This document shows positions 4,141 through 12,581 of a stretch of DNA of 32,665 nucleotides, piece by piece. Each line of letters starts with the position of its first letter. Position 1 is the stretch's first letter. A model generated the notes under the pieces. It did not search any database. It saw nothing but the letters and a program-made list of their open reading frames with translations, and was not told the origin of the DNA. The stretch is from assembly GCA_025351485.1 (NCBI GenBank), contig JANXVU010000157.1, positions 1-32,665 on the forward strand. The letters run 5' to 3'. Both the position numbers and the translations under genes were made by a program. Source of the DNA: Candidatus Eiseniibacteriota bacterium (lineage in GTDB: Bacteria > Eisenbacteria > RBG-16-71-46 > JACRLI01).

Positions 4141-4719
4141 ATCCAGCACGTGCAACAGGTCGAAGCATAATGAATCCGGTCTATTGACCGGCTCATTCCG
4201 GTGGGCCGTTCCCAGGTAATGTCCCGAACTTGGATCCACCACCTTGGCGTCCGTTTCCATGCGTCCGGCCAGGATCGAATAGCTTCCGACCACGAACCGG
4301 GTGGCCCCGATCGCCGAGGCGACTTTCAGTGCGAGCGAGGGCGCGATGTGCCCCTGGCCGGAGTAGCCCTGGGCGCGAAGGGATGAGTCGACGGCGCCGG
4401 GGGATATCACCCGCAGCGCCTTGCGCCCGGCGAGTGCCGCCACGATCCGGCTTCGAAGCGTGTCTCCCGCAGCCGCCGGCTCCTCCGGTCCTTCGAACGG
4501 GAACACCGCCACCACCCGCGATCTGGCCGGCACCATCTCCGGGAACGGGTTCTTCTGCGACGACAGGTACTGTGCCAGGAACAGCGCCGCCCCCACCCCG
4601 GCCAGGAAGTACCATTTCAAATTTTTCGGAATGTTGAAGACGGCTTCCTTCGCGGGGGGTGTGGCCGGCCCGGTGGGGGCAGGCCCCTCCGGACCCGTGT
4701 CCCGGGGAGAATCCGTCAT
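4123..4719 (-). CDS. Membrane-anchored FlgO/CsgG-like (TolB N-terminal-like) protein
   Basis: This 198-residue protein has a Pro-rich N-terminus, a single membrane segment at about residues 36-52 (WYFLAGVGAALFLAQYL) and a soluble domain. The domain reads VVAVFPFEG, then LRSRIVAALAGRKALRVIS, SSLRAQGYSGQGH, VASAIGATRFVVGSYSI and AKVVDPSSG. This order of 'VaVlpF', 'l.....v.s.vd..L..qG', 'lg.alga..vv.Gs....g' and 'a.lvd..tG' is typical of the FlgO, CsgG and TolB-N-terminal fold, which is used in envelope assembly and in stand-alone sensors. The function here is unknown. No Shine-Dalgarno precedes the ATG. Instead the ATG overlaps the stop of a 13-codon ORF (see 4716-4757), suggesting translational coupling. 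The last residues are encoded in AT-rich DNA, so the C-terminus may have been altered. Confidence 0.7.
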   Translation of the reverse strand: MTDSPRDTGPEGPAPTGPATPPAKEAVFNIPKNLKWYFLAGVGAALFLAQYLSSQKNPFPEMVPARSRVVAVFPFEGPEEPAAAGDTLRSRIVAALAGRKALRVISPGAVDSSLRAQGYSGQGHIAPSLALKVASAIGATRFVVGSYSILAGRMETDAKVVDPSSGHYLGTAHRNEPVNRPDSLCFDLLHVLDPVDIH

Positions 4720-4757
4720 CGGCAGTCCGTCCGATGCGAGAGCTGAGTCATGTCCAT
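4716..4757 (-). CDS. Possible leaderless 13-codon upstream ORF
   Basis: On the minus strand, ATG at 4757-4755 opens a 13-codon frame (MDMTQLSHRTDCR) whose TGA at 4718-4716 overlaps the ATG of the FlgO/CsgG-like gene as ATGA. A -10-like TAGAAT lies 6 bases before the ATG, so transcription would start at about the first codon. The main gene lacks a ribosome-binding site, which makes re-initiation from this ORF a reasonable inference. The peptide resembles nothing I know. Confidence 0.4.
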   Translation of the reverse strand: MDMTQLSHRTDCR

Positions 4758-4763
4758 GGCGGC

Positions 4764-4791
4764 ATTCTAGACCAATCCGCTTCGTTGTGCC
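4764..4791 (-). promoter_or_regulatory. Predicted promoter for the minus-strand FlgO/CsgG-like gene
   Basis: The -10 TAGAAT is read on the minus strand from 4769 to 4764. The -35 (GGCACA at 4791-4786, spacer 16) is weak. It overlaps the -35 of the opposing promoter for the gene at 4821, so the two would compete for polymerase. Confidence 0.4.
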
Positions 4792-4813
4792 CGCCCGGTA
4801 AAAGGCGTAGGAT
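4785..4813 (+). promoter_or_regulatory. Sigma70-type promoter giving a leaderless phosphatase mRNA
   Basis: TTGTGC (4785-4790), a 17-base spacer, then TAGGAT (4808-4813). The ATG at 4821 lies 7 bases after the -10, so the start point would be at or next to the initiation codon. There is no Shine-Dalgarno sequence before that ATG, in agreement with a leaderless message. Confidence 0.6.
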
Positions 4814-4820
4814 TTACCCC

Positions 4821-6143
4821 ATGAACGAACCCCAGAACCCTATGGTTCCGCCCCTGGGCCCGGTCACCAACTCCGGACTTTTCCGTCTCCAGACGGAGAT
4901 CGTGGAGCTGCGCGAGAGCATCAAGCAGCTGACGGTTCTGAACGACATCGCGCAGGCCCTTTCCACGGCCAACGACGCCAACGCGGTCCTGGACGTGCTG
5001 GTGTCCAAGACACTCCAGTACATGGGCTCCGAGCAGGGCGTGATCTGGCTGTTCACCGAGGACGAGAACAATCCGCTCAAGACCCAGATCCGCCGCTCCG
5101 AGGGCGCGGCCGGTGGCCCCATGCGCCTGCGGCCCAGCCTGGCGGGATGGGTGAGCAAGCATCAGCAGACGCTGGTGGTGGACGACCTGGCGACCGATCC
5201 GCGCTTTCCGGGGATCGCCAGGGACACCAGCGGCGTGAGGTCGGTGCTGGCGGCGCCGCTCCGTTCGCACGACAAGCTGATCGGAGTGCTGGCCCTGTTC
5301 AACAAGCGGGAAGGCAAGTTCACGCGCTCCGACGAGCAGCTCGCCACCATCCTGGGGGCGCAGTCGGCGCAGACGATCCTGAACGCCCAATTGACCGACC
5401 AGCAGCGCCAGCAGGATGCGCTGGAGCGAGACATGAAGCTGGCCAGCACCGTCCAGCAGCAACTGCTGCCGCGCAAGCAGCCCGCGTGGGCAGGCTTCGA
5501 GGTGGCCGGCAAGAACATCCCGGCCCGCGACGTGGGCGGAGACAGCTTCGAGTTCCTGGAACTGGGCGAGGGGCTCGTGGCGCTTTCCATCGCCGACGTT
5601 TCGGGCAAGGGCGTTCCGGCGGCGCTGCTTATGGCCAGCCTGCACGCCACGCTCCAGTGCCTGTCCCAGACCGGTGGACTGGTGAGCGAATGCGTGAGCC
5701 GCATCAACCGGATGGTCAGCGAAGCCACCACGCCGGGCCGCTTCGCCACCATGTGGTACGGCACCATCGATTTGGCCACACGCCGGATCACCTACTGCAA
5801 CGCCGGCCACAATCCGCCGCTGCTGCTGCGCGCGGACGGTACGGTGGAGCATCTGGAGGCGGGCGGCGTGCCCGTGGGCTTCATGCCCGAGTGGAAGTAC
5901 GAGCAGGCTGAGGCGGAGCTGCGCACCGGCGATCTGCTGTTGCTCTACTCCGACGGCCTGTCCGAGGCCGAGAATCCCCGCGGAACCCAATTCAGCGACG
6001 AGGGGGTGGAGGTGCTGCTCAAGAGCCTCGCGCACCTGCCGCCCGACCAGATCGTCGAGCAGATGCTCCTCATGGTGAAGCGCTTCTCCCAGGGTGCGCC
6101 CCAGACCGACGACCAGACCCTGGTGGTCCTCAAGGCCCTTTGA
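4821..6143 (+). CDS. GAF domain plus SpoIIE/RsbU-type PP2C phosphatase
   Basis: This is a 440-residue cytoplasmic Ser/Thr phosphatase of the type that usually dephosphorylates an anti-anti-sigma factor. A GAF sensor domain spans about residues 35-190 (LNDIAQALSTANDANAVLD to LATILGAQSAQTILNAQL), with VRSVLAAPLRSHDKLIGVLA as its typical core. A short coiled coil (about 191-215, with VQQQLLPRKQP) follows, then the SpoIIE domain (about 225-440). The PP2C metal motifs are all present: RDVGGD (236-241), ADVSGKG (258-264), NAGHNPP (327-333), LYSDGLSEAEN (375-385) and DDQT (430-433), so it should be active. I chose ATG 4821 because of the promoter just ahead and because the frame upstream of it reads as non-protein-like. 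No anti-sigma kinase or STAS partner is encoded in the window. tsaD overlaps its stop. Confidence 0.9.
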   Translation: MNEPQNPMVPPLGPVTNSGLFRLQTEIVELRESIKQLTVLNDIAQALSTANDANAVLDVLVSKTLQYMGSEQGVIWLFTEDENNPLKTQIRRSEGAAGGPMRLRPSLAGWVSKHQQTLVVDDLATDPRFPGIARDTSGVRSVLAAPLRSHDKLIGVLALFNKREGKFTRSDEQLATILGAQSAQTILNAQLTDQQRQQDALERDMKLASTVQQQLLPRKQPAWAGFEVAGKNIPARDVGGDSFEFLELGEGLVALSIADVSGKGVPAALLMASLHATLQCLSQTGGLVSECVSRINRMVSEATTPGRFATMWYGTIDLATRRITYCNAGHNPPLLLRADGTVEHLEAGGVPVGFMPEWKYEQAEAELRTGDLLLLYSDGLSEAENPRGTQFSDEGVEVLLKSLAHLPPDQIVEQMLLMVKRFSQGAPQTDDQTLVVLKAL

Positions 6144-7150
6144 ACGTCCTCGGCATCGAATCCTCCTGCGACGACACGGCGGCGGGCGTATCTCGTGACC
6201 GGCGCATCCTTTCCAACATCACTTCCGCGCAATCCGTGCACTGGGAGTACGGCGGCGTCGTGCCCGAGCTGGCCTCGCGGGCCCACCTGGAACTGATCCT
6301 GCCCGCGATCGATGCCGCGCTGGGCCAGGCCGGCCTGGACTGGAAGGGCGTGGACGCCATCGCCGTCACCCGCGGGCCGGGCCTGGTAGGGAGCCTCCTC
6401 GTCGGCCTGTGCACCGCCAAGGCGCTCGCGCTGGCGCACCACAAGCCGTGGCTGGGCGTGAACCACCTGGAAGGGCACGTGTGGTCGGTGTGGGGCACGG
6501 ACCCCGGGTGGTCGGCGCCGTTCGTGTGCCTGATCGCTTCCGGTGGCCACACGGAAATCGTGCATGTGAAAGGATTCGGCCAGTACGCGCTGATGGGCTC
6601 CACCCGCGACGACGCCTCCGGCGAGGCGTTCGACAAGGTGGCCCAGCTGCTGGATCTGCCCTATCCCGGCGGGCCCGAAGTGGACAAACTGGCGCGCTCC
6701 GGCGATCCCGGAGCCGTGAAGCTGCCGCGCGCGCTGATGAACGAGCCCGGATTCGAGATGAGCTTCAGCGGGCTCAAGACCGCGGTTCGCCTGTACATGG
6801 AAAAGAACCCCGCTCTCTCCGCCCAGGGGCGCGCCGACCTCGCGGCCAGCTTCGAGGCCGCCGTGTCCGACGTGCTCACCGGCCGCACCCTGGACGCGGC
6901 CCGCTCGGCCGGCGTGGACCGCGTGGCGGTGGTGGGGGGCGTCTCGCTCAACACCGGCCTGCGCGCCTCCATGGATAAGGCCTCGCAGGCCGCCGGAATC
7001 CGGTGCATCTTTCCGCCTCCCCGCCTGTGCGGGGACAACGGGGCCATGATCGCCCTGGCGGGCGCCGAACGCCTGGAGCGGGGCGAGCGCTCGGGGGACG
7101 AGACCACCGCCACGCCCGCCCTGGATGAAATGAGCTTCTTCCTGCCCTGA
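6140..7150 (+). CDS. tsaD: tRNA N6-adenosine threonylcarbamoyltransferase
   Basis: TsaD transfers the threonylcarbamoyl group to A37 of ANN-decoding tRNAs, working with TsaB and TsaE. The 336-residue protein has the ASKHA-fold signatures: VLGIESSCDDTAAGV at the N-terminus, YGGVVPELASRAHLE, TRGPGLVGSLLVGL, the metal ligands in NHLEGH (His109 and His113), SGGHTEIVHV, GEAFDKVAQLLDLPYPGGP, GGVSLNTGLR and GDNGAMIALAG. The start is a TTG at 6140 whose bases overlap the TGA of the phosphatase gene (TTGA). This indicates translational coupling and no separate ribosome-binding site. TsaB and TsaE are not in the window. Pairing tsaD with a stress-type phosphatase is unusual and may just reflect operon drift. 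Confidence 0.96.
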   Translation: MNVLGIESSCDDTAAGVSRDRRILSNITSAQSVHWEYGGVVPELASRAHLELILPAIDAALGQAGLDWKGVDAIAVTRGPGLVGSLLVGLCTAKALALAHHKPWLGVNHLEGHVWSVWGTDPGWSAPFVCLIASGGHTEIVHVKGFGQYALMGSTRDDASGEAFDKVAQLLDLPYPGGPEVDKLARSGDPGAVKLPRALMNEPGFEMSFSGLKTAVRLYMEKNPALSAQGRADLAASFEAAVSDVLTGRTLDAARSAGVDRVAVVGGVSLNTGLRASMDKASQAAGIRCIFPPPRLCGDNGAMIALAGAERLERGERSGDETTATPALDEMSFFLP

Positions 7151-7361
7151 CCCGCCGCATCGGACACCCGCTCCTGCCAAAGATGCTCCTGATGGCCCAT
7201 TCGGTCTCCCGGCGGAATTTGTTTCGGTGTTACGCCGGGGTAAAGGCCCGCCCCCGGCCGGCCGATATTCCCCCTAACGAACTCATGCAGTTAGCCATGC
7301 GGCGGAGGCTCCGTGCAGCCATCCGTCCGCATGCTTCTTCCCCCCAGATCCGGAGCTCCGT

Positions 7362-8330
7362 GTGCAGGCATCGCGCGTCAATCGCATCCTTGTGGTGGAG
7401 GACGACGAACACCTCGTGGAATTGCTGAAATTCCATCTCCGGGCCGAGGGGTACGAAGTCCTGGTCGCACTGAACGGCCGGGCCGGCGTGGAGTCTGCCC
7501 GGGCCCAGTCTCCCGACCTGGTGCTGTTGGACCTGATGATGCCGGAAATGGACGGCTACGAGGTGCTGCGCCAGCTGCGCGACTCCTACCGCACCCGCTA
7601 TCTTCCCGTGATCGTCGTGACCGCGCGCTCCCAGACCTCGGATCGCGTGCACGGGCTCGAGAGCGGCGCCAACGACTACGTCAGCAAGCCCTACGTCTTC
7701 GCGGAACTCCTGCTGCGCATCCGAAACCTGCTCAACTGGACCCGCGACAACCGCGACATGAACCCGCTGACCGGCCTGCCCGGCAACGTGTGCATCGAAA
7801 AGGAAGTCACCCGGCGCCTGGAGACCGGCGAGCGGTTCGGCTTCCTGTACGTGGACGTCAACAACTTCAAGGCCTACAACGACCACTACGGCTACGCCCG
7901 CGGCGACATGGTGATCCGCGAAACGGCCAGCCTGATGGGGAGCATCCTGCAGGAGATGGGCCGCGAGTCGCACTTCCTGGGCCACATCGGGGGCGACGAC
8001 TTCGTGATCCTCACCGACGCCGACGTGGTGGAGGAAATGGGCGAGCGCTTGCTGCAGGCCTACGCCCAAACGGTGCCGCACCTGTACGACCCAGAGGATC
8101 GCGCGCGCGGATACATCGAGGTTTCCAACCGCAAGGACGAGATGGAGCGCTTTCCGTTCCTGACCCTGACCGTGGCCGCGATCGCCTCCGACCAGTTTGC
8201 CACCACCCACGCCGCCGAACTGTCCGTCCGGGCCGCCGAGCTGAAGAGCCACGGAAAAACCAAGCGGGACAACGTCCTGGTCACCGAGCGCCGCCGCGCC
8301 CAGGACCTGGCGGAACGGAAGGTCGGCTAG
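7362..8330 (+). CDS. Response regulator with GGDEF-family output (GGDDF site)
   Basis: This 322-residue protein pairs a receiver with a diguanylate-cyclase-like domain. The receiver (7-124) is complete: acidic pocket VEDDE, phosphoacceptor Asp57 in VLLDLMMP, Thr87 and Lys109. The GGDEF domain begins at NPLTGLPGN (134-142), has YVDVNNFKAYNDHYGYARGD (163-182), and its signature reads GGDDF (210-214), so the usual Glu of the fourth position is Asp. The inhibitory-site pattern before it (RxxD...R) reads RESH...H, so product inhibition is probably absent. Whether it makes cyclic-di-GMP is uncertain. The start is a GTG at 7362, with GGAG 6 bases upstream, and the next conserved residues follow at once. 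Its TAG at 8328-8330 directly abuts the ATG of the next gene. Confidence 0.87.
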   Translation: MQASRVNRILVVEDDEHLVELLKFHLRAEGYEVLVALNGRAGVESARAQSPDLVLLDLMMPEMDGYEVLRQLRDSYRTRYLPVIVVTARSQTSDRVHGLESGANDYVSKPYVFAELLLRIRNLLNWTRDNRDMNPLTGLPGNVCIEKEVTRRLETGERFGFLYVDVNNFKAYNDHYGYARGDMVIRETASLMGSILQEMGRESHFLGHIGGDDFVILTDADVVEEMGERLLQAYAQTVPHLYDPEDRARGYIEVSNRKDEMERFPFLTLTVAAIASDQFATTHAAELSVRAAELKSHGKTKRDNVLVTERRRAQDLAERKVG

Positions 8331-9752
8331 ATGATCCTGGTCTTCGCCATCATCACGCTGGTGCTCGTGCTGGGCCTGGTGGCCACGCAGTTGAAGCTGC
8401 GCATGGTCGAAGAAACCTGCCAGACCGAAAAGGTCCGCAACGACGCGCAGCGCGCCCAGTTCGACCGGGACACGCTGAACCTGCGCACCGAGTGCGAGGG
8501 CCACACCACCGCCTCCGAGGCGCGCGCGGAAAGATGGAAGTCACTCTACAAGCACGGCCTGGACCTGGCCTCCTCGTCGGCCGCCGACGGCTGGCCGCGC
8601 ATGGCGGCGCTGTTCGCCGCCGCGGGCCACTTCCGCGTGGCGGCCATCCGGGTGCGCGACGAGGACTCCGGCTCCTTCCTGCTGGAGCACCTGGTGGGCC
8701 TGCCGGCCGATGTGGCGGCCCGCCTGCGGGAGGCGCGCGTGCCGCAGCCGGTGCTGACCGAATGGATGAACCCGCGAAACGCTTTTGGATCGGGGTTCGT
8801 GCTCAGGGCCAAGGGCCTCCAGGGCGGTGCCGTGAATTCCCCGGGCGCCGCGCTGGAACCACAGGATGCATGGCTGATCCCCCTGATGGACGCCGAGCAG
8901 CAGGTGTGCGCGTACGTGTCCCTGGCGCAGCCCAACCCGTGCCGCCTGCCGGACTCCGACGAGCTGGCGTTCTACGACGCCGCCCGCATTTTCTGCCAGT
9001 CCATTTTCGAACTGCAGCTGCGCGAGGTGAACCTCTCCCGCCGCACGCGCGACCAGCTCCGGACCACCCAGCTGGAGGCGGCCTCCCTGTCCGCCTATGG
9101 GAACACCCTGCGGAACATTTCGGAGCGGCTGCGCACCGGCCTGGGGCACATCGAGGGCTACGCCCAGACCATCCTGGAATACGGCCGGGACCTGCCCTGG
9201 GACGAAGAGAAGCGCCTGGCCCAGGTGGTGGTGGACGAGTGCTCGGAAATCCTCGAGGACGCGCTCCTGGTTGGCGATATGGCCGACATCACCGACCGCG
9301 ACGGCGGGGCCGACGTGCAGGCCGTGGAGTTCTCGAATCTTTTCGCCGAATCCCTTCAGTTCCTGGGTAAGCGAGCCGAAAACAAGGGCGTGACGCTGAA
9401 CGGGCCTCCCCTGCAGGGCGGGCTGTATCTGCGCCAGCCTTCGGGGGCGCTCAAGCGGCTGCTGGTGCTCGTCTCGGACGAGCTCCTCGCCGGCTGCCTG
9501 CGCGGAAACGAAGTTTCCCTGTCTGCATGGCAGGACAGCGATGAAGTCCACATCCACTGGAGAGCTTCGGGGCGCGGGATGGATCTGAGCGCCGAAGAAG
9601 TCCGGTCGCCGCGGTGGCACGCGGCTCAGGCGGTGGCGCTCGCGCTCGGGGGATCGCTCAGGGAGAGCACTCTCGGCTCGGACAACCGGGCAGTCACGCT
9701 GACCATACCGCTGTCCCGAAAGGATGCCGGCCCGCAGCTGCGGGCCGCCTGA
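8331..9752 (+). CDS. Histidine-kinase-like protein lacking the phosphoacceptor His (pseudokinase)
   Basis: This 473-residue membrane protein has one N-terminal transmembrane helix (residues 1-20), a coiled coil (about 21-75), a GAF-like sensor region (about 76-225), a dimerisation helix pair (about 240-320) and a C-terminal ATPase-like domain (about 330-462). The helix that should read SHELRTPL reads SERLRTGL (264-271), so the phosphoacceptor position 265 is Glu. The ATPase domain is also worn: the N-box region (RLLVLVSDELLAGCL, 376-390) lacks the usual Asn pair, and the G1 box DxGxG reads ASGRG (412-416). It therefore probably neither autophosphorylates nor transfers phosphate, and may act as a scaffold, sensor or inhibitor for the flanking receiver proteins. 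It starts immediately after the preceding stop and ends 20 bases before the next receiver gene. Annotation pipelines would likely call it a sensor histidine kinase. Confidence 0.78.
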   Translation: MILVFAIITLVLVLGLVATQLKLRMVEETCQTEKVRNDAQRAQFDRDTLNLRTECEGHTTASEARAERWKSLYKHGLDLASSSAADGWPRMAALFAAAGHFRVAAIRVRDEDSGSFLLEHLVGLPADVAARLREARVPQPVLTEWMNPRNAFGSGFVLRAKGLQGGAVNSPGAALEPQDAWLIPLMDAEQQVCAYVSLAQPNPCRLPDSDELAFYDAARIFCQSIFELQLREVNLSRRTRDQLRTTQLEAASLSAYGNTLRNISERLRTGLGHIEGYAQTILEYGRDLPWDEEKRLAQVVVDECSEILEDALLVGDMADITDRDGGADVQAVEFSNLFAESLQFLGKRAENKGVTLNGPPLQGGLYLRQPSGALKRLLVLVSDELLAGCLRGNEVSLSAWQDSDEVHIHWRASGRGMDLSAEEVRSPRWHAAQAVALALGGSLRESTLGSDNRAVTLTIPLSRKDAGPQLRAA

Positions 9753-9772
9753 GGGCTCAAGGAGGTGAGCAC

Positions 9773-10174
9773 ATGAAGAAGGGCAAGATCCTGGTGGTGG
9801 ACGACGAAGTCTACATCGTTCATATCCTGGACTTCAGCCTGGGCATGGAAGGCTACGAAGTCGTCACGGCACTGGACGGCGAAGAGGCGCTCGCCAAATC
9901 GCTCGAACACAAGCCCGACCTCATCGTGCTCGACATCATGATGCCCAAGATGGACGGCTACGAAGTCTGCAAGCGCCTGAAGGCCGACGACGCCACCCGC
10001 GGCATTCCCGTGATCCTGCTTTCGGCCAAGGGTCGCAACGTGGACCAGAAGATGGGCTTCGAGGCGGGCGCGGAAGACTACATCACCAAGCCGTTCAGCC
10101 CGCGCAAGCTGGCGGAGCGCATCAACGCCCTGCTGAACACGGGCGTGCCCCAGCCGCGCCAGGAAGCGGTCTAA
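9773..10174 (+). CDS. Single-domain response regulator
   Basis: A 133-residue stand-alone receiver. It has a complete active site: Asp10/Asp11 in VVDDE, phosphoacceptor Asp54 in IVLDIMMPKMDG, Ser84 in ILLSAKG and Lys106 in TKPF. There is no output domain; only a short Gln/Pro tail follows. The ATG at 9773 has a very strong ribosome-binding site (AAGGAGGTGA at 9759-9768), stronger than those of its neighbours, so it is probably made in excess over the pseudokinase encoded just upstream. It would act as a CheY-like messenger or phosphate sink. Its phosphate donor is not encoded nearby, because the adjacent kinase-like protein lacks the acceptor histidine. Confidence 0.9.
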   Translation: MKKGKILVVDDEVYIVHILDFSLGMEGYEVVTALDGEEALAKSLEHKPDLIVLDIMMPKMDGYEVCKRLKADDATRGIPVILLSAKGRNVDQKMGFEAGAEDYITKPFSPRKLAERINALLNTGVPQPRQEAV

Positions 10175-10571: not shown

Positions 10572-12581
10572 ATGACTCTGATCCGCGCAGTTGTCCTTTC
10601 CCCGGTCCCGGGGCTCTTCCACTATTCTCTTCCCAACGAACTGCAGGCCGTGGCCCGCCCGGGATCGCGCCTGCGGCTGCCCTTCGGGCGGTCCTCGCGC
10701 GAAGGGTTCCTGGTGGACTTCAAGGGCGAGGAAAAGCCGGGGCTGAAGGCCGTGGCGGAGGTGTTGCCCGAGGAGCTCTCGCTTCCCCCGGACCTGCTCG
10801 AACTGACTTCGTGGGCCGCGGATTACTATTTCGCGCCGTGGGGCGACGTGCTGATGGCGGCCGTGCCCTCGGGCGTGGGAAAAGGCCGCGCGCGAAAGAA
10901 GAAGGCCCCGGAGGAGGACGAAGCCCGCCTGCGCCCGGACTCGCCGGCGCCTGCCTCCACTCACCTGCCGACGGACGAGCAGGCCGCGGCCATTGCGGCC
11001 CTGGATCAGGCGCTGGCAGCGGGAGGCTACTCGACCTTGTTGCTGGAGGGCGTGACCGGCAGCGGCAAGACCGAGGTGTACCTGCGCGCGGCCGAGAGGG
11101 CCATCCAAGCGGGTGGCCAGGTGCTGGTGCTGGTCCCTGAGATCGCCCTGTCGCCGCAGCTGGAGACCCGCTTCGCCTCCAGGTTCCCCGGGCGCGTGGC
11201 GGTGCTGCACAGCCGCCAGACCGACCGCGAGCGCCGCGAGGCCTGGCTGCGGACGCGCCGCGGCGAGGCGGCCGTGGTGCTTGGAGTTCGCGCGGCGGTG
11301 TTCGCCCCGCTTCCGAATCTGAAATTGGTGGTGGTGGACGAGGAGCACGAGCCTTCCTACAAGCAGATGGAGGGTTTTCGCTACCACGCACGCGACCTGG
11401 CGGTGAAGCGCGCCCAGCTCGCCGGGGCGGTGGCGCTCCTGGGCTCCGCCACCCCCAGCCTGGAATCCCGCGCCAACGCCATCCGCGAGCGCTACCAACT
11501 GCTCCGCCTCACCCGGCGCGTGGATTCGAGACCGCTCCCCGACGTGCGCCTGGTGGACATGCGCGACCGCACGGTGCGCCAGCGGTCCACGCTGCTGTCC
11601 GAGCCGCTGCTCGAGGCCATGGAAGAAAAACTCGGGCTCGGCGAGCAGATCATCCTGTTCCTGAACCGCCGCGGATTTTCCTCCACCATGCAGTGCCGCG
11701 CGTGCGGCGAGATCTGCAAGTGCCCGCGGTGCGACGTGCCGCTCACCGTGCACCGCAACCCGGGCGAGATGCGCTGCCACTACTGCGACTTTCGCATGCC
11801 CGAGCCCACCGTGTGTCCCGCCTGCCAGTCCATCGAGATCAAGCTGGCGGGCGCCGGAACGCAAAAGGTGGAGTCGGAGCTGGGCCGGCTGTTCCCGGAT
11901 TTCCCGATCGTCCGGATGGACCTGGACACCACCCGCGGGCGCACCTCGCACGCCGACCTGCTGGGCGAGTTCGCCGACCGGCGCGCCCAGATCCTGCTGG
12001 GCACCCAGATGGTAGCCAAGGGCCACGACTTTCCCGGCGTGACACTGGTGGGGGTGATCCTGGCCGACGTCGGACTCTACATCCCGGACTTTCGCGCCTC
12101 GGAGCGGACCTGGCAGTTGCTCACCCAGGTCTCCGGAAGGGCCGGCCGCGGATCACAGCCCGGAACGGTGCTGCTCCAGACCTATTTCCCGGACCATCCG
12201 GCGGTGCGGGCGGCGCTGGTGACCGGGAGCGAAGCCTTCGCGGAACTGGAACTGGCCGAGCGCACCCTGTTTCACTACCCGCCGGCGGTGCGCCTGGTCA
12301 GCCTGCGGCTCAGCGGCAAGGACGAGACCGAAGTGCGGACGGCGGCCGAGGAAATCGCGGGCCGGGCGGCCGCGCACCCGGAGGCCGACAAGGTGGGCCG
12401 GCTCGGTCCAGCGCCGGCGGCGCTGGCCCGGCTCCGGAACCGGTTTCGCTACCATCTGCTGCTCCGCTCTGGTGACCTGCGGGCGCTGCGGGCCATGACC
12501 CGCGACCTGGCCCAGGCCGGCACCGGCGGTCGCCGGGCGGTCCGGCTGGAAGTGGACGTGGACCCCGTGGAGACGCTCTAG
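10572..12581 (+). CDS. priA: Primosomal protein N' (replication restart helicase PriA)
   Basis: PriA recognises stalled forks, unwinds the lagging arm 3' to 5' and recruits the primosome. The 669-residue protein is somewhat shorter than the E. coli enzyme but complete. It has an N-terminal 3'-end-binding domain (about 1-100), a charged linker (101-130), Walker A GVTGSGKTEVY (160-170), Walker B DEEH (256-259), GSATPSLESR (291-300), and the zinc-binding insertion with nine Cys between 375 and 418 (CRACGEICKCPRC, then CHYC, then CPAC). Helicase motifs VKxGTQMVAKGHDFPGV-like and QVSGRAGRG follow, then a C-terminal domain that is normally the primase/SSB contact. The start is ATG 10572, directly after a -10 box. 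It is transcribed apart from the upstream signalling genes. Confidence 0.96.
   Translation: MTLIRAVVLSPVPGLFHYSLPNELQAVARPGSRLRLPFGRSSREGFLVDFKGEEKPGLKAVAEVLPEELSLPPDLLELTSWAADYYFAPWGDVLMAAVPSGVGKGRARKKKAPEEDEARLRPDSPAPASTHLPTDEQAAAIAALDQALAAGGYSTLLLEGVTGSGKTEVYLRAAERAIQAGGQVLVLVPEIALSPQLETRFASRFPGRVAVLHSRQTDRERREAWLRTRRGEAAVVLGVRAAVFAPLPNLKLVVVDEEHEPSYKQMEGFRYHARDLAVKRAQLAGAVALLGSATPSLESRANAIRERYQLLRLTRRVDSRPLPDVRLVDMRDRTVRQRSTLLSEPLLEAMEEKLGLGEQIILFLNRRGFSSTMQCRACGEICKCPRCDVPLTVHRNPGEMRCHYCDFRMPEPTVCPACQSIEIKLAGAGTQKVESELGRLFPDFPIVRMDLDTTRGRTSHADLLGEFADRRAQILLGTQMVAKGHDFPGVTLVGVILADVGLYIPDFRASERTWQLLTQVSGRAGRGSQPGTVLLQTYFPDHPAVRAALVTGSEAFAELELAERTLFHYPPAVRLVSLRLSGKDETEVRTAAEEIAGRAAAHPEADKVGRLGPAPAALARLRNRFRYHLLLRSGDLRALRAMTRDLAQAGTGGRRAVRLEVDVDPVETL

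Follow-up and report, generated by a model that had tools for sequence, protein, structure and literature searches.

A probable degenerate histidine kinase between two intact receiver genes in an operon of Candidatus Eisenbacteria

Results

Gene row and the flanking receivers

The window, by which we mean the whole 32,665-nucleotide stretch of contig JANXVU010000157.1 analyzed here, carries a row of three genes on the plus strand between tsaD (6140..7150, +) and priA (10572..12581, +). The row consists of a gene for a REC-GGDEF response regulator of 322 aa (7362..8330, +; Pfam Response_reg 3.2e-29, GGDEF 1.2e-15), a middle gene of 473 codons (8331..9752, +), and a gene for a single-domain response regulator (9773..10174, +; Pfam Response_reg 7.7e-31). 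tsaD holds the same place in the loci of Eisenbacteria and Krumholzibacteriota and thus anchors the synteny, to which priA conforms downstream in the loci of relatives. A gene for a GAF-SpoIIE (PP2C-type) phosphatase (4659-6143) lies directly upstream of tsaD and is absent from that position in the loci of relatives.

An initial sequence-only reading had described the three genes as tightly packed and both receivers as complete, and these descriptions were accurate. No base separates the REC-GGDEF gene from the middle gene and 20 bases separate the latter from the lone REC gene, which is preceded by AGGAGGTGA. The REC-GGDEF protein possesses the acidic pair, D57, T87, and K109, and the lone REC the corresponding DD/D/S/K set; it is 72-81% identical to its orthologues in families f2, f5, and f8. 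The REC-GGDEF gene was found in nearly all of the 46 genomes of the same class (Candidatus Eisenbacteria) at 43-50% identity. Its signature reads GHIGGDDF in the window, and GH[IV]GGDDF is conserved across the class. This form, in which His is present and Asp takes the place of the usual Glu, is near-invariant in a family that was encountered in the window and approximately 580 loci from many phyla, and that occurs widely among Actinobacteria, Chloroflexi, Omnitrophota, and Firmicutes.

Loss of kinase motifs in the middle protein

Regarding the middle gene, the claim that its product had lost the motifs of a histidine kinase was borne out and made exact by an alignment to 20 intact orthologues of a kinase referred to below as kinase B. 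The codon at the acceptor site (9123..9125, +) is GAG, which encodes Glu265, while His occupies this site in 20/20 intact orthologues; the H box SHELRT has become S264-ERLRT, in which the catalytic Glu is also replaced, by Arg266. The former N box (9471..9494, +) reads LVSDEL in place of (N/H)LxxNA, with Glu384 for Asn, and the former G1 box (9564..9581, +) reads ASGRGM in place of DTGIGI, with Ala412 for Asp. The F box, the ATP lid, which is missing after the G1 position, and the G2 box (GxGLGL) are deleted. Pfam detected neither HisKA nor HATPase_c in the middle protein, even at an E-value of 1, whereas both were found in 20/20 intact orthologues; NCBIfam returned weak kinase matches alone (PnpS, 1.5e-5, residues 261-418). 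The protein therefore has none of the H, N, G1, and G2 boxes of an active HisKA kinase and belongs to the pseudo-histidine-kinases, which lack the acceptor His and/or the ATP-binding residues. The binding of ATP is very unlikely because all nucleotide contacts have been lost, as expected from what is established about the GHKL fold. A sequencing error or frameshift was rejected as an explanation, given five motif losses within one open frame of normal coding composition. In addition, no out-of-frame kinase remnant emerged at the locus when all six frames of the entire genome were searched with HATPase_c and with an intact orthologue.

Domain organization and structural models

The middle protein is predicted to begin with a hydrophobic helix, a likely membrane anchor (residues 2-20; 8334..8390, +; MILVFAIITLVLVLGLVAT), which is also helical in the structural models. 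This is followed by a putative GAF-like sensor domain (approximately residues 84-205; 8580..8945, +), which aligned to the GAF1 region of the 20 orthologues, 18 of which scored with Pfam GAF there, and by a DHp-like helical hairpin that contains the former H box (residues 209-325; 8955..9305, +), modeled by AF2 as helices 209-287 and 290-325. The AF2 model based on the orthologue alignment comprised a long N-terminal helix, a coiled coil, the GAF-like domain, the DHp hairpin, and a lidless CA fold, at an overall pLDDT of 75 and approximately 80-88 in the CA core, figures to which the alignment may lend confidence because it consists mostly of intact kinases; a model from the single sequence was poor (pLDDT 43). 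Foldseek matched the AF2 model to histidine kinase structures, among which DivL was the second match in the PDB (E 1.2e-12, target TM 0.71) and the closest compact one. A histidine kinase fold (DHp and CA) is thus recognizable from the model, from Foldseek, and from a kinase B profile (E 1.7e-15), and the lost motifs, the membrane-type N terminus, and the DHp and CA homology together support the proposal that the protein is a membrane-anchored pseudo-histidine-kinase.

The ancestral operon and descent of the middle gene

Forty related loci were compared. The order in relatives is tsaD, REC-GGDEF, kinase A, kinase B, REC, and priA, and both kinases are GAF-HisKA-HATPase_c-GAF-HD-GYP proteins. 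Kinases A and B were both present at 15 loci, B only at six, A only at seven, and neither at ten, with the remaining two contigs ending too early. In Krumholzibacteriota, five loci (L154-L158) have the same order, and the kinases have His wherever the H box is readable; two of them (L155 and L158) have an additional REC gene, located between those for kinases A and B. Judging from these loci, Candidatus Eisenbacteria and Krumholzibacteriota share an ancestral order that runs from tsaD through REC-GGDEF, one or two GAF-HisKA-HATPase-GAF-HD-GYP kinases, and REC to priA. The gene immediately upstream of REC-GGDEF in Omnitrophota and certain other phyla encodes a stand-alone kinase that is intact.

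The middle protein scored 59 bits (E 1.7e-15) with the kinase B profile and 23 bits with that of kinase A. When it was searched against 99 relatives, the best match was at the operon's own B kinase in 17/25 genomes, and the matches that covered the GAF region were all at the operon, with a single exception, the contig of which is probably the continuation of a broken one; a search against named genomes found no relative. The middle gene lies between the REC-GGDEF and REC genes and its product is homologous to kinase B along GAF1, DHp, and CA, but stops after the CA domain without the C-terminal GAF and HD-GYP of kinase B. Its placement in a tree was set aside because the branch was too long to trust; orthology is therefore based on synteny and on the profile scores. 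On these comparisons and the model, the middle gene is almost certainly a degenerate orthologue of kinase B that occupies the same site with the same N-terminal architecture, at approximately 20% identity. In the lineage of the window, kinase A would have been lost, and kinase B would have shed its GAF2-HD-GYP half, acceptor His, catalytic Glu, N, G1, and G2 motifs, and ATP lid, while its membrane helix, coiled coil, GAF-like domain, DHp hairpin, and CA-like fold would have been retained.

Two expectations of the sequence-only reading did not survive this comparison. Close homologues with an intact acceptor His had been named as evidence against it, and all 20 intact B orthologues are of this kind; the pseudokinase state of the middle protein itself stands, but its conservation does not, and the dead state is that of the lineage, not of the family. 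Glu265 was found in the genome of the window only (family f1), the order of which comprises 21 genomes, all the others belonging to family f2. A REC-GGDEF/pseudokinase/REC module had also been envisaged as a signaling unit, whereas relatives show an active HK-GAF-HD-GYP protein between the two receivers or the receivers alone, and in the loci compared this arrangement is specific to the lineage of the window.

Erosion of kinases in relatives

The ten kinase-less genomes belong to families f3, f6, f9, f10, and f11, and both receivers persist in them. In genus g14, kinase A is also a pseudokinase: His is replaced by Thr (VATELRSPL), DxGxG has become DEGPP, and GxGLGL is lost, such that the three motifs read ATELRS, DEGPPL, and ASRLGL. 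This case represents one lineage, sampled by two MAGs with near-identical proteins (L085/L153 in G019 and L086/L177 in G018). As in the window, a dead kinase lies in the same operon; however, it is an independent event in the other kinase, and GAF2 and the HD-GYP motif have been kept. The kinase A proteins of genera g4 and g12 retain His and Asn and have DxGPP at G1 and GTR(L/V/I)(G/A)L at G2; the ATP binding of these proteins (L063, L072, L074, L077, L078, and L084) may be partly lost. Since kinase A is dead or eroded in g14, g4, and g12 and ten genomes have no kinase, kinase activity is, to judge from these genomes, clearly expendable at this locus. A kinase B with SRELRT (His to Arg) and frame breaks in the kinase region (L069 in G016, approximately 5937-9357) represents a pseudogene or an assembly error. 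The phosphorylation sites of the receivers are kept in nearly all loci; at one (L068 in G001, 6676-7071), Glu replaces the Asp of the phosphorylation site in the lone REC (DDESK), a possible pseudo-receiver that lies beside an intact kinase B.

Rate of change and coding composition

The rapid change is confined to the middle gene. Its identity between the genome of the window and f2 is 19.7%, against 48.7% between f2 and f8, while the corresponding values are 47.0 and 50.4 for REC-GGDEF, 47.7 and 48.2 for tsaD, 47.3 and 38.6 for priA, and 76.8 and 80.4 for the lone REC; REC-GGDEF, tsaD, and REC show no speed-up. In the tree, the branch of the middle protein measured 5-6 changes per site, whereas end branches had a median of 0.21. 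Nevertheless, its GC contents at the three codon positions (0.711/0.462/0.878) and its coding score (0.463, against 0.443 for tsaD and 0.446 for priA) resemble those of working genes despite the fast change, and we accordingly read the middle protein as probably being maintained by selection for a role other than kinase chemistry.

Phosphate donors elsewhere in the genome

The view that the true phosphate donor lies elsewhere is in agreement with our results, in that any phosphate on the flanking receivers must come from outside the middle protein, and 33 matches to HATPase_c in the genome exceed the family cut-off. Since the receivers outlive the kinase in ten genomes, further donors or partners must exist for them. 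A search of the whole genome detected no full-length GAF-HisKA-HATPase-GAF-HD-GYP copy, and the relocation of an intact kinase A or B to another site was rejected accordingly. An orphan membrane histidine kinase with an intact AAHELRTPM and no adjacent receiver (C28:41292-42761 in G000; L231) is a possible candidate donor for the receivers of the operon; its identification as the missing donor was not adopted because it is generic, the A and B profiles matching it alike at 216 and 196 bits.

Discussion

The likeliest role of the middle protein, inferred here at a probability of roughly one half, would be that of a membrane sensor, phosphorylation-independent in its action, that docks one or both receivers, with other kinases of the cell phosphorylating them. 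The protein would read the phosphorylation state of the receivers, as DivL reads DivK~P, or would alternatively hold them at the membrane. DivL, the best studied precedent, has no kinase or phosphatase activity and controls CckA. It, too, is a pseudo-histidine-kinase anchored in the membrane, in which the DHp and CA folds are present and the acceptor His is substituted. It requires R553, T557, and Y562 to bind DivK~P (PMC4211667); counted from the acceptor position, R268 and Y277 of the middle protein align with R553 and Y562, and the counterpart of T557 is Gly272. The layout is also similar, with a DivK-like lone receiver and a PleD-like REC-GGDEF protein on either side of the middle gene, and divK of Caulobacter is in an operon with pleD, which encodes a receiver-GGDEF protein (PMC7003649). 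On the other hand, DivL is from another phylum, has PAS domains, carries Tyr (rarely Ala in its family) in place of the acceptor His, and keeps the ATP lid and weak ATP binding, whereas the middle protein has Glu265 there, derives from an HK-GAF-HD-GYP kinase, and is encoded inside the operon; Pfam and the alignment detected no PAS domain in it, but a GAF-like region instead. The parallel would accordingly be one of function and layout, not of descent.

The part of the middle protein most similar to kinase B is DHp helix 1 (residues 261-280), in which 5 of 11 near-invariant B columns are kept, against 12 of 40 in the GAF domain and 8 of 31 in CA. This retention is only weakly telling because kinase B is itself best conserved in helix 1, and a statistical claim of special protection of the docking helix was dropped because the difference between these fractions is too weak.

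The main alternative to receiver docking is that the middle protein partners another kinase, the autophosphorylation of which it would lower by DHp pairing or by binding to the kinase core. RetS of Pseudomonas, which shares a degenerate HATPase and acts without autophosphorylation, inhibits GacS through the kinase core (PMC5992135); the DHp and CA-like folds that such a role would use are retained in the AF2 model, and the genome holds many other kinases, including C28:41292-42761. However, no candidate partner lies adjacent, and RetS keeps its H box (HExxT), has two receivers of its own, and targets GacS; since HExxT corresponds to ERLRT in the middle protein, a RetS-type phosphatase action is unlikely. 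We regard inhibition of another kinase in this manner as a rather unlikely alternative. No more probable is the reading of the gene as a remnant of kinase B in decay, which would do little or nothing and be heading for the kinase-less state of the ten relatives. The very long branch, the lost domains and motifs, and the complete disappearance of the kinase from five families are what such decay would leave behind; nonetheless, the frame is still open, the spacing tight, and the composition by codon position like that of essential genes, and a gene drifting neutrally would lack the contrast between GC2 and GC3.

A role restricted to membrane sensing or structure and unrelated to both receivers appears improbable. 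The membrane helix, coiled coil, and GAF-like domain would suffice for it, and the residues substituted in the H box would interfere with a normal receiver interface, but the gene has kept its place between the same two receiver genes without a gap, and R268, T269, and Y277 of the docking helix are retained. We give hardly any credence to a remaining kinase or phosphotransfer activity through another His or phosphorylation in trans: although His273 lies in the same helix eight residues past Glu265, it is off the aligned position, where orthologues have Ala, Ser, or another residue, and the nucleotide-binding motifs and lid are all gone.

To our knowledge, few pseudo-histidine-kinases are understood. 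The class itself is already recognized, and the conserved operon and its repeated erosion represent the more interesting part of our findings. The acceptor His is missing in 0.9% of sampled HisKA domains (PMC12632262). At one syntenic place, an intact ancestor, a dead descendant, a second dead relative, and a kinase-less state are found together, and, thus, the operon allows us to ask what a pair of receivers does after the death of its kinase. Through the REC-GGDEF protein and the HD-GYP-fused kinases, it also joins domains for the synthesis and breakdown of c-di-GMP in one row, an arrangement of which no description was found in the literature searched. Receiver docking by the middle protein, combined with the losses in relatives, leads us to the broader and tentative suggestion, which we consider more doubtful than docking itself, that an old c-di-GMP operon repeatedly sheds its kinase chemistry (Glu265 in the window, Thr in g14, and complete loss in five families) and leaves a reversed circuit of pseudokinase and receivers that is convergent with DivL, DivK, and PleD. 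If true, a membrane pseudokinase would be read out by, or would itself read, the two receivers that its ancestor accompanied as an active kinase.
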